DNA of 42,624 bases from Candidatus Sodaliphilus aphodohippi (GTDB taxonomy: Bacteria > Bacteroidota > Bacteroidia > Bacteroidales > Muribaculaceae). The stretch spans positions 1 to 42,624 of the forward strand of contig JAGHSV010000023.1 in the NCBI GenBank assembly GCA_018065665.1. Reading direction: 5' to 3'. Each line of letters starts with the position of its first letter. Positions within the stretch are counted from its first letter, which is position 1. A program made the translations under genes and the position numbers. This document shows, in pieces, positions 29,802 through 33,181 of the stretch. Below the pieces are notes generated by a model that made no database searches, was not told the origin of the DNA, and saw nothing but the letters and a program-made list of their open reading frames with translations.

Positions 29802-32402
29802 ATGAAAAAACTATTTACTTTACTCGCATTGTTGATGGTAACTGCTGGCTGGGCTTTTGCTGCCAGCACCAACTACCTATGCGCTGACTTTAATGGTCTT
29901 TCAACAAAAAATGCTGACTTTACGGTCACTTTTGGCCCTTATTCAATGGCATTGGCCAAGACTGACAAAGGGGCAACCGCACCTGTCTATAATGCGAATG
30001 CCAAGGATTTGCGTGTTTACGCTAACGGTACATTGACTCTGAGCACAACCGGTGAGACTTTCAACAAGGTTGTTTTCAATGTTTCCACAAAAGGTAAAGA
30101 GCAACTTGCTGACGTTCTTGCAAGTGTAGGTTCTGTGACAGTTGATCCCACTACTGCAACTGCTACATGGACTGGTACCGGTGTTAAAAGTGTGACTTTT
30201 ACTGTTGGTGCCAAAAACGTGTATGGAACAAAGACCGACAAAACAGCGGGTCAATTGTGCTTCTCTTCTATTGACATCACCACTGGCAGCGGACAAGCCG
30301 AGGAGACTGTTTCCAAGCCCGTATTCAGCGTTGCTGGCGGTACTTACCACTGCGTTCAGGATGTCGCAATCAACTGCGGCACTACTGGCGCAAGCATCTA
30401 TTACACACTCAACGGTTCAACTCCCACAGCTTCTTCTACTGCCTACACCGAGCCTCTCCACATCAACGCCCAGAGCACTACAGTGAAGGCTATCGCCATC
30501 AAGGGTGACAAGCAGAGTGAAGTTGCCGAGGCTACCTACGTTATCGAGTCGGCTGTTCTCGTGAACAACATTGCCGAATATCAGAACGTTGCCGACAGCA
30601 CCTACATCCAGTTCAAGAACGATGTTAACGTGCTCGCTCACAACGGCAAGAACCTCTATGTTAAGGATGCAACCGGTTACGGTTTCTTCTATGGTGACAT
30701 GCTTGGCGGCAAGACCTACAAGAACGGTGACGTTATCCCCTCGGGCTTCGTAGGCCAGAAGATCACCTTCAACGGCATGCCCGAGCTCAGCTGCTATCCC
30801 ACCGACGGCTTTGGTGCCGCTAAGGGCAACAGCCCCATCGAACCCGAGGTTATCACCACTGCTGGTATCACCACTGCAAACTTCGGACACTATGTTCTCA
30901 TCAAGAACGCTAAGATTTCTTATAACAACAAGACTATCACCGACGCTGCCGGCACTGCACAGGTACGCACAGGTATGGGCGGCTATGGCAACTCTACCGA
31001 CGAGACCAAGGCGTTCGACGTGATTGCCATCATCGGTACAACCAAGGACGGCGACAACTTCATCCCTGTTGCTCTCCCCGTTAAACTTCAGGAAGTTGGC
31101 GGCGGCGACGTTGTTGACGGCATCGACATTGCTGACTTTGGCTCACAGGCCGACAATGCTAAGGTTCAGTTCAAGAACCCCGCAACCGTTCTCGCAGTTA
31201 GCGGCAGCCGCATGTTCGTCAAGGACGAAACCGGCTACATGCTCATCTACGGCAACACTGGCCAGACTTACTCTCAGGGTAACGTGATCCCCGCCGGTTT
31301 TGGTGGTACAAAGACCACATACGACGGCGAGCCCGAGCTCAAGACTCCTTTCACCGGTTTCAAGGCTGCTTCAAGCACCGTTCTTGTAACTCCCGAGACT
31401 CTCACAGCAAACATGGTTAACCACAACAACTTCGGTCACTTTGTAGTTGCCAAGAATGTCACCATCAGCGAGGTTGGCACCGGAACAACAGTTACCGGCA
31501 AGATCACTCTCTCTACTGGCGAGACTATCGACTTCTGCAACAACATGGGTGCAAACATGCCCAGCGACCTCACCAAGAAGTATGACATCTATGGTGTCAT
31601 CGGTTCTTATGGCAAGACCAACACTATCTATCAGCTGCTCACCACCCGCATCACCGAGGCTGGCGGTGGCGACGTTGAGGTTGCCGACGTGAACAGCATC
31701 GAGGACCTCTACAACCTGGGTAAGGGCGTTAACGGCCGCATCACCAGCGACATGGTTGCCATCTACCAGAACGGTCAGTACCTCTATGTAAAGAACAACA
31801 ACACCTACGCTCTCGTTTACGGTAACGTTACCAACAAGTTTGAAAACGGCGACGTCATCACCAACGCCATTGCAAACTGGACTCTCTACCAGAACGCTAA
31901 GCAGCTTGTTCCCGTTGACTCTACATTCGCTTCAACCCGCAAGGTTGCCGCTATCGAGCCCACCGAGATTACCGTTGAGGAAATCGGTACCGATATGGTT
32001 CACAACTATCTGCTGATTAAGGACGCTCAGTTCGAGGCTGCCGAGGCTGCAAACACCTACACTCTGTTTGACGACACCGCCGAGGCTGTTATGTTCAACA
32101 AGTTCACCAGCACCGTGACCATCCCCGAGGACTTCGAGGGCAAGAAATATGATGTTAAGTGCTTCGTAACTCTCTTCAACGATGCAGTTGAGCTCTACCC
32201 CGTTGAGATTAAGGACAACTCTGCAATCAAGGGCGATGTTAACCTTGACGGCAAGATTGACGTAACCGACCTCAACATCATCATCAACATCATGCTCGGC
32301 AGCGACAAGAAAGACTACGACGGCCGTGCTGACCTCAATGGCGACGGCAAGGTTGACGTTGTTGACATGAACCAGGAAATCAACCTTATCCTCGGCAAAT
32401 AA
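29802..32402 (+). CDS. Secreted repeat protein with chitobiase-C-terminal-like domain, three related modules and a dockerin
   Basis: Signal peptide; VFSVAGGTYHCVQDVAINCGTTGASIYYTLNGSTPT; three (V/M)xVxx..LYVKD.(T)GY repeats; C-terminal GDVNLDGKIDVTDLNIIINIMLG / ADLNGDGKVDVVDMNQEINLILG. Confidence 0.82.
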   Translation: MKKLFTLLALLMVTAGWAFAASTNYLCADFNGLSTKNADFTVTFGPYSMALAKTDKGATAPVYNANAKDLRVYANGTLTLSTTGETFNKVVFNVSTKGKEQLADVLASVGSVTVDPTTATATWTGTGVKSVTFTVGAKNVYGTKTDKTAGQLCFSSIDITTGSGQAEETVSKPVFSVAGGTYHCVQDVAINCGTTGASIYYTLNGSTPTASSTAYTEPLHINAQSTTVKAIAIKGDKQSEVAEATYVIESAVLVNNIAEYQNVADSTYIQFKNDVNVLAHNGKNLYVKDATGYGFFYGDMLGGKTYKNGDVIPSGFVGQKITFNGMPELSCYPTDGFGAAKGNSPIEPEVITTAGITTANFGHYVLIKNAKISYNNKTITDAAGTAQVRTGMGGYGNSTDETKAFDVIAIIGTTKDGDNFIPVALPVKLQEVGGGDVVDGIDIADFGSQADNAKVQFKNPATVLAVSGSRMFVKDETGYMLIYGNTGQTYSQGNVIPAGFGGTKTTYDGEPELKTPFTGFKAASSTVLVTPETLTANMVNHNNFGHFVVAKNVTISEVGTGTTVTGKITLSTGETIDFCNNMGANMPSDLTKKYDIYGVIGSYGKTNTIYQLLTTRITEAGGGDVEVADVNSIEDLYNLGKGVNGRITSDMVAIYQNGQYLYVKNNNTYALVYGNVTNKFENGDVITNAIANWTLYQNAKQLVPVDSTFASTRKVAAIEPTEITVEEIGTDMVHNYLLIKDAQFEAAEAANTYTLFDDTAEAVMFNKFTSTVTIPEDFEGKKYDVKCFVTLFNDAVELYPVEIKDNSAIKGDVNLDGKIDVTDLNIIINIMLGSDKKDYDGRADLNGDGKVDVVDMNQEINLILGK

Positions 32403-32429: not shown

Positions 32430-32465
32430 ATGAGGGACGACGCACCGCGATGCGCCGTCCCTCAT
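32430..32465 (+). terminator. Hairpin after the dockerin gene
   Basis: ATGAGGGACGaCGCA/TGCGcCGTCCCTCAT with one mismatch. Confidence 0.65.
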
Positions 32466-32510
32466 GTCGTTTTCATGGATTAATATTTATCATCCTTAAA
32501 TAATTTTTAT

Positions 32511-33063
32511 TATTGCTGTCCGGGAAACTTTTGATACATTCATGTAAACATCAGATTGTCAATGCGTCTATTCTTTCAATGCTAAAAGGGGCTTACTTTA
32601 TTCAATGGACTAATATTAAGCGCTGAAAGTGCGATATGTGAGCCGGCAGGCGCAACTGTAACCGAGCGTAGCGAGCTCGGCAGAGTGAGCAGCGGTAAGT
32701 CGGCGAAGCCGGTGCCGCAAATAGCGAACCTCTGCCAACTGCCCGGGGTTGAGCGAGCCCTTGGGCGAGCAAGGCCTCGGATATGATGCCACACACTTAG
32801 GGCGGGCTGAAAGTCTGCGATTTACCCATCATTGAGGTTGCTCTATTGCTGTTTGTGCATTATATGGCGTGTAAATCGCGGACTTTCAGCCCGCATTTGC
32901 TACTGGTGTCACTTTCCGGGGCCTGCGCTCTCTACCGTTCGCTTCGACCCCGGTTACAGTTGCGCTGCGCTCACACTTCGCACTTTCAGCGCTTTATGCC
33001 TATCGGCATTTACTAAGTCACTCCACAGTCTTGTACCATGAAATCTTTTACCGGACAGCAATA
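32511..33063. mobile_element. MITE-like non-coding element with nested inverted repeats
   Basis: Terminal inverted repeat TATTGCTGTCCGG/CCGGACAGCAATA flanked by direct repeat AATTTTTATTA (32502-32512 and 33064-33074, overlapping the TIR by up to 2 bp); internal inverted repeats at 32618-32634/32978-32994, 32650-32664/32951-32965 and 32802-32825/32871-32894. Confidence 0.65.
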
Positions 33064-33181
33064 AATTTTTATTAAACTATTGCATATTCCAATTTTTTTG
33101 GGGACTTTTGCATACCCAAACCAAAACGCACAAATCTTTCAACAATAAATACACAGAGTTAAATACCTAAAAAAACAAATT

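Follow-up and report, generated by a model that had tools for sequence, protein, structure and literature searches.

The window, that is, the whole stretch of 42,624 nucleotides of Candidatus Sodaliphilus aphodohippi DNA analysed here, contains a 553-bp repeat in which several pairs of inverted repeats lie nested one inside the other. An original prediction, made from the letters of the sequence, had interpreted this locus as a MITE of unusual design. The question that it raises is where the inner repeats come from and which enzymes could have moved them. The interpretation we favour, with a probability of about 0.85, is that of a two-layer non-autonomous mobile element, an IS4-family MITE containing a gene-less Y1-type element; the nested inverted repeats stem from this second, unrelated (Y1/HUH) mobile element.

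Limits and copies of the element

The repeats of the window are far beyond chance. Folding gave z-scores of -12.9 for one strand and -13.4 for the other, and 0 of 100 shuffled sequences were equally stable. All the inverted repeats listed in the original prediction were recovered where it had placed them: the outer pair TTATTGCTGTCCGG/CCGGACAGCAATAA at 32510–32523/33051–33064 (longer form 18 nt, 94%), AAGCGCTGAAAGTGCGA, perfect at 32618–32634/32978–32994 (longer form 29 nt, 90%), GCGCAACTGTAACCG, perfect at 32650–32664/32951–32965, and GCGGGCTGAAAGTCTGCGATTTAC, with one mismatch, at 32802–32825/32871–32894 (longer form 31 nt, 87%). It was also right that the element encodes no plausible protein, save for 15 nt left over from a transposase gene. 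The outer features are as follows.

32511–33063: whole IS4-type MITE, 553 bp; copies on contigs 242, 87 and 96 and other copies start and/or stop here
32502–32510: left target-site duplication AATTTTTAT, 9 bp, an exact match to 33064–33072, directly outside the limits of homology
33064–33072: right target-site duplication AATTTTTAT, an exact match to the left copy
32511–32527, plus strand: left terminal inverted repeat TATTGCTGTCCGGGAAA, from the count of TTGCTGTCCGG and the presence of the motif at the ends of IS4-family elements
33047–33063, minus strand: right terminal inverted repeat, read as TATTGCTGTCCGGTAAA on the minus strand, on the same basis
32511–32617: left part of the outer MITE, present alone with 32995–33063 in copies of ~190 bp
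32995–33063: right part of the outer MITE, in the same ~190-bp copies

A target duplication of 9–11 bp had been proposed. The duplication is the 9-bp AATTTTTAT, because homologous copies set the true limits of the element at 32511 and 33063; the two further bases are a chance match, the extra shared TA being, on the left, the start of the element itself and, on the right, flanking DNA. Outside the element, a strong hairpin (GAGGGACGACGCACCGCGATGCGCCGTCCCTC, window 32437–32470) lies 3′ of the gene ending at 32402 and is possibly the transcription terminator of that gene.

Multiple copies with shared boundaries, as expected of a MITE, are present in the same genome, the assembly of which comprises 251 contigs at 87% completeness, with repeats collapsed. 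A 591-bp query returned 97 BLAST pieces, and full or near-full copies of 87–94% identity were found on contigs 96, 242 and 87. Exact occurrences of TTGCTGTCCGG numbered 28 in this genome versus 2 for a reversed control pattern; the terminal inverted repeat of the 553-bp repeat itself reads TATTGCTGTCCGG(T/G)AAA. Most paired copies in this genome have no target duplication, which implies that many of them are old, recombined or misassembled. The BLAST pieces also share inner boundaries near 32615, 32800, 32870 and 32995.

The outer layer and its IS4-family relatives

The longer end sequence TTGCTGTCCGGTAAA was found in 10 of 100 sampled congener genomes, many times in four of them (G073, G087, G089 and G016) and once or twice, for which chance is a possible explanation, in the other six. 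In G089, contigs stop ~50 bp inward of such ends, a pattern that a multi-copy IS would produce. When one end sequence was used to scan the whole collection, the sole match was a contig from Sphingobacteriales.

The original prediction had proposed to look for a complete IS with the same ends. One whose ends are closely related, and which is likewise flanked by a 9-bp duplication, is present in the genus. It was assembled whole in G067, where it measures 1449 bp, has ends TATTAGTGTCCGTTAAA and TTTACCGGACAACAATA, near-identical to those of the window element, and is flanked by the 9-bp duplication AATAGGAAT. Its transposase of 411 aa scores 177 bits with the IS4-family model NF033592 (cut-off 115) and contains the Pfam domains DUF4372 and DDE_Tnp_1. 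In G087, a transposase gene of this kind, an ORF with DUF4372 and DDE_Tnp_1 domains, is preceded by the exact terminal repeat TATTGCTGTCCGGTAAAA, identical to the end of the window element; this end, read as TATTGCTGTCCGGTAAAAC, starts 114 bp before the ORF. Exact 9-bp duplications flank five end pairs (the window, C109, G073, G087 and the autonomous G067 IS), compared with 0 of 1032 displaced control comparisons. On account of the shared ends, the 9-bp duplications and the IS4-family transposase of the autonomous relative, the outer layer is a MITE of the IS4 family, presumably mobile, and an ordinary new member among such MITEs. The MITE interpretation is thus supported both by the boundaries of multiple copies and by an IS with related ends and a duplication of the same length.

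In the own genome in its present form (87% complete, 251 contigs), neither protein nor family searches found a DUF4372 transposase, and a search for a plasmid relative of the IS found none. In the search for an empty site, the flanks of the window copy proved not to be conserved in other species: relatives of the right-hand neighbour gene occur in 6 other genomes at only 34–48% identity, and joined-flank DNA, examined for the first six of ten joined sites with the two best candidates per genome, was matched one flank at a time only. At the site of a G073 copy, where an empty site was sought in the related G016, homology ends at the stop codon of the gene.

Several additional observations concern elements with such ends. 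G123 contains two IS copies of 1417 bp (L215 1388–2804 and L240 1388–2804), the duplications of which match crosswise: AATTATAAT is the left-hand duplication of one copy and the right-hand duplication of its counterpart, which points to recombination or misassembly between them. A stretch at the beginning of the IS4-family transposase gene, the FTGQ codons (TTTACCGGACAG), copies the terminal repeat (L180 3512–3546, G087). A 149-bp mini-element of the same genome (L186 3035–3183) runs from a normal end to an internal TTTACCGGACAG-type site, which suggests that miniature forms can arise through a cryptic end within the transposase gene. Finally, a 974-bp element at C109:2940–3913 (G000; L045 1499–2472) has IS4-type ends, the exact 9-bp duplication ATTAATAAT and, as cargo, an antitoxin gene of the HigA family (TIGR02607). 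Upstream of this gene is a 74-aa open frame with no Pfam or NCBIfam match, which we take to resemble the C-terminal region of HigB-type toxins.

The inner layer and the Y1 transposase genes

The three inner inverted repeats of the original prediction are hairpin C, the GTAACC/GGTTAC box and hairpin A of an arrangement that also surrounds Y1 transposase genes. The corresponding features of the window are listed below; in addition, the arm that includes hairpin B′ contains an extra hairpin block at 32665–32737.

32618–32994: inner gene-less Y1-transposase-type element, in the order C′-B′-A′-spacer-A-B-C, from alignments of its right half to tnpA(Y1) flanks
32618–32634, plus strand: hairpin C′, AAGCGCTGAAAGTGCGA
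32650–32664, plus strand: GTAACC box arm (GCGCAACTGTAACCG), counterpart of the GTAACC upstream and GGTTAC downstream boxes at Y1 genes of the genus
32743–32780, plus strand: hairpin B′ (CCGGGG...CCTCGG)
32802–32825, plus strand: hairpin A′, GCGGGCTGAAAGTCTGCGATTTAC
32822–32836, minus strand: remnant of the 3′ end of tnpA(Y1), read as CTCAATGATGGGTAA on the minus strand; the gene end on contig 232 is CTCAAGGATGAGTAA, of which contig 130 keeps 15 of 15 bases
32871–32894, minus strand: hairpin A, GTAAATCGCGGACTTTCAGCCCGC, its core identical to the hairpin on both sides of full-length tnpA(Y1) at L256/L257
32916–32953, minus strand: hairpin B (CCGGGG...ACCCCGG), from the alignment
32951–32965, minus strand: GGTTAC box arm (CGGTTACAGTTGCGC), from the Y1-gene boxes and the alignments
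32978–32994, minus strand: hairpin C, the inverted copy of C′

Contigs 68 and 232 of the own genome each carry an IS200-like Y1_Tnp gene, truncated 5′ by the contig end, the stop codon of which lies within hairpin A (TAAATCGCGGACTTTCAGCCCGC); the gene of contig 232 ends in CTCAAGGATGAG TAA. The right half of the window element aligns with the DNA directly downstream of these two genes at 109/125 and 106/134 positions. Both flanks of a full-length tnpA from another species (L257) match it at 92/131 positions each, with alignment scores of 57 and 59 against shuffled bests of 25 and 27.

Relatives of the Y1 protein occur in 80 of the 101 genomes of the genus. In full-length loci, a gene of ~149 aa with the motif Y---Q--HH (YIKGQKAHH in the own genome) is located between two inverted arms. 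Outward from the stop codon, the order is hairpin A, the long hairpin B, the GGTTAC box and hairpin C, and the upstream arm is the mirror image. At the loci of two 149-aa homologues (L256 and L257), a 22-nt hairpin A (TTATCGCGGACTTTCAGCCCGC), nearly that of the window, is found inverted on both sides of the gene. Among 28 Y1 genes chosen by the Y---Q--HH motif, which are not independent because each is a best match from a single genus, 16 are surrounded by an inverted repeat of at least 12 nt (shuffled maximum 11). Both boxes are likewise present at 16 of these 28 loci, GTA[AG]CC ~150 nt before the start (typically ~147) and GG[TC]TAC ~95 nt after the stop. A solo arm, with neither gene nor partner, was observed at L254 ~1081–1198.

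In gene-less copies, the end of the lost gene sits directly inside hairpin A′. Contig 130 keeps CTCAAGGATGAGTAA exactly as at the end of the contig 232 gene, and the window version is CTCAATGATGGGTAA. Because the last codons and the stop of tnpA(Y1) survive in such copies, the inner layer is, to judge by its sequence, derived by deletion from a Y1-transposase element. Inner units are also seen where IS4-type ends are lacking: in G031 and G004, matches are confined to the inner parts, mostly near contig ends, where the absence of outer ends is weak evidence of independence.

The best model for the cognate Y1 protein is that of IS200/IS605, with 54.2 bits for a cut-off of 55; REP_Tyr_transpos scores just 21 bits. 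Inspection of hairpins A, B and C by eye showed no GTAG-type tetranucleotide of canonical short REPs beside them. A second, RAYT-like Y1 transposase gene is present at L245 1114–1896 (G000:C160; NF047646, 56 bits, below the cut-off of 80), between inverted copies of a AGATAAAA(A/G)G(G/A)ACGGTTCTTTTTATCTAG-type sequence, an arrangement that recalls the TIRYT group. A classical REP/RAYT system based on this gene was considered and rejected: reading of its surroundings revealed no hairpins like A, B or C. Other short-hairpin families, with GGTAGCGGCCTCCAGCCGC and GCATCGAAGATGC as examples, are found at L117 4980–5560 and in other intergenic regions of G000, where they are shuffled together with A/B/C arms in mosaic intergenic blocks.

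Relationship between the two layers

Copies of ~190 bp at C118:4105–4296 and C217:1271–1460 consist of the outer parts and one central hairpin C, with the inner part absent; the central hairpin reads AAGCACTTTCAGTGCTT or AAGCGCTGAAAGTGCTT, both orientations of hairpin C being represented. The outer MITE would be moved in trans by an IS4-family DDE transposase (DUF4372 + DDE_Tnp_1) cutting at the ~17-bp terminal inverted repeats, and insertion with a 9-bp stagger would produce the 9-bp target duplications, a scheme that draws on knowledge of the family and on the duplications seen. The inner layer derives, on this reading, from an element in which a small gene for a Y1 (HUH tyrosine) transposase was flanked by inverted arms, each made up of hairpin A, hairpin B with the GGTTAC box, and hairpin C; the window copy retains the arms but, of the gene, no more than the stop and the codons just before it. 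The inner layer probably inserted at the central hairpin of a ~190-bp outer MITE and then multiplied along with it. Alternatively, the inner layer may have been lost from filled copies, leaving one hairpin C. The ~190-bp forms may indeed be deletion products instead of pre-insertion states, because one hairpin C remains in them. Y1 enzymes of the IS200/IS605 and REP systems work on single-stranded DNA at hairpins (PMC6006769), and hairpins A, B and C are likely single-strand recognition sites or substrates of the Y1 enzyme.

The locus could also be viewed as a single IS4-type MITE with an interior made palindromic by internal inverted duplication, its hairpins being unrelated to any other transposase. 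Folding into long palindromes is common among prokaryotic MITEs, and the outer terminal repeats and duplication would suffice for mobility. This is nevertheless very unlikely, given that homologues of the inner half flank Y1 transposase genes in both the own and other species, that this half keeps the final codons of such a gene, which contradicts a purely internal origin, and that it is also seen without IS4-type ends. Conversely, the inner Y1-type element might be the part that moves, with the surrounding IS4-type sequence no more than an old target travelling with it. Inner pieces are more numerous than full outer elements and are also found between other flanks, which would fit this scenario, as would the wide distribution of tnpA(Y1) relatives (80/101 genomes of the genus); it is rendered improbable by the window copy, whose outer ends are bordered by an exact duplication of 9 bp, and by the fact that both outer ends are common to other full copies. 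The very strong fold predicted for either strand could, finally, betoken a structured RNA gene or a regulatory hairpin, such as a riboswitch or attenuator, of the neighbouring genes. This explanation was rejected after an Rfam search of the element gave no family match; the symmetric mobile-element arms account for the fold, and copies are dispersed across many contigs, which makes an RNA function scarcely credible.

The two-layer element that we favour explains the nested palindromes within a MITE as two transposition systems layered one upon the other, with likely cognate enzymes named for both. Subclass 1.2 Y1 transposases are reported to be low-copy genes that lack terminal structures. We would give roughly even odds to the broader proposal that those of this genus are at the core of a symmetric mobile system, in which paired inverted arms with three hairpins apiece, single arms and gene-less miniature pairs spread through genomes, hitch-hike in IS4-family MITEs and could thus be moved by two unrelated chemistries.

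Comparison with known systems

In common with IS4-family ISs encoding DUF4372 transposases and their MITEs, the outer layer has the terminal repeat TATTGCTGTCCGGTAAA, the 9-bp duplication and the association with DUF4372 and DDE_Tnp_1. Unlike such an IS, the window element has no transposase gene and houses arms from another mobile element, and the C109 element carries a HigA-like antitoxin gene and a toxin-like fragment. IS4-type ends therefore carry varied cargo, an antitoxin gene included. The combination of an IS4-type MITE with Y1-type arms was not found in the literature searched, which was covered in part.

The Y1 protein shares with subclass 1.2 of TnpA_Y1 a length of ~149 aa, the Y1_Tnp domain and the motif Y---Q--HH (Quentin et al. 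2018, PMC6006769). In that survey, members of the subclass are described as generally having neither terminal secondary structures nor IS properties, whereas the genes found here are bordered by conserved inverted arms of three hairpins and have multi-copy derivatives that lack the gene. Subclass 1.2 proteins would thereby gain a likely DNA substrate, which was not found in the survey. REPINs and REP–RAYT systems (PMC3116915, PMC2817692) likewise comprise inverted hairpin pairs, scattered copies and a Y1 gene flanked by the same hairpins; the inner element differs in its size of ~380 bp, in having three different hairpins per arm, in showing to the eye no canonical REP with a GTAG tag, and in its cognate transposase, which is nearer to IS200 than to the RAYT models. 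IS200/IS605 elements have asymmetric subterminal hairpins and insert beside a tetranucleotide with no duplication; the inner arms, being symmetric and inverted, do not match the first of these traits.

Porphyromonas gingivalis MITEs such as BrickBuilt, MITE239 and MITE464 (PMC4596501) are also multi-copy non-coding elements of Bacteroidales with IS-matching ends, and one BrickBuilt copy contains another MITE; they have IS5-type ends and tandem repeats, and no Y1-type arms are described for them. The Tn3-derived miniature elements known as TIMEs (PMC4133298) resemble the window element in being mosaic, non-autonomous, moved in trans and able to capture other modules, but they have Tn3 ends and duplications of 5–6 bp.
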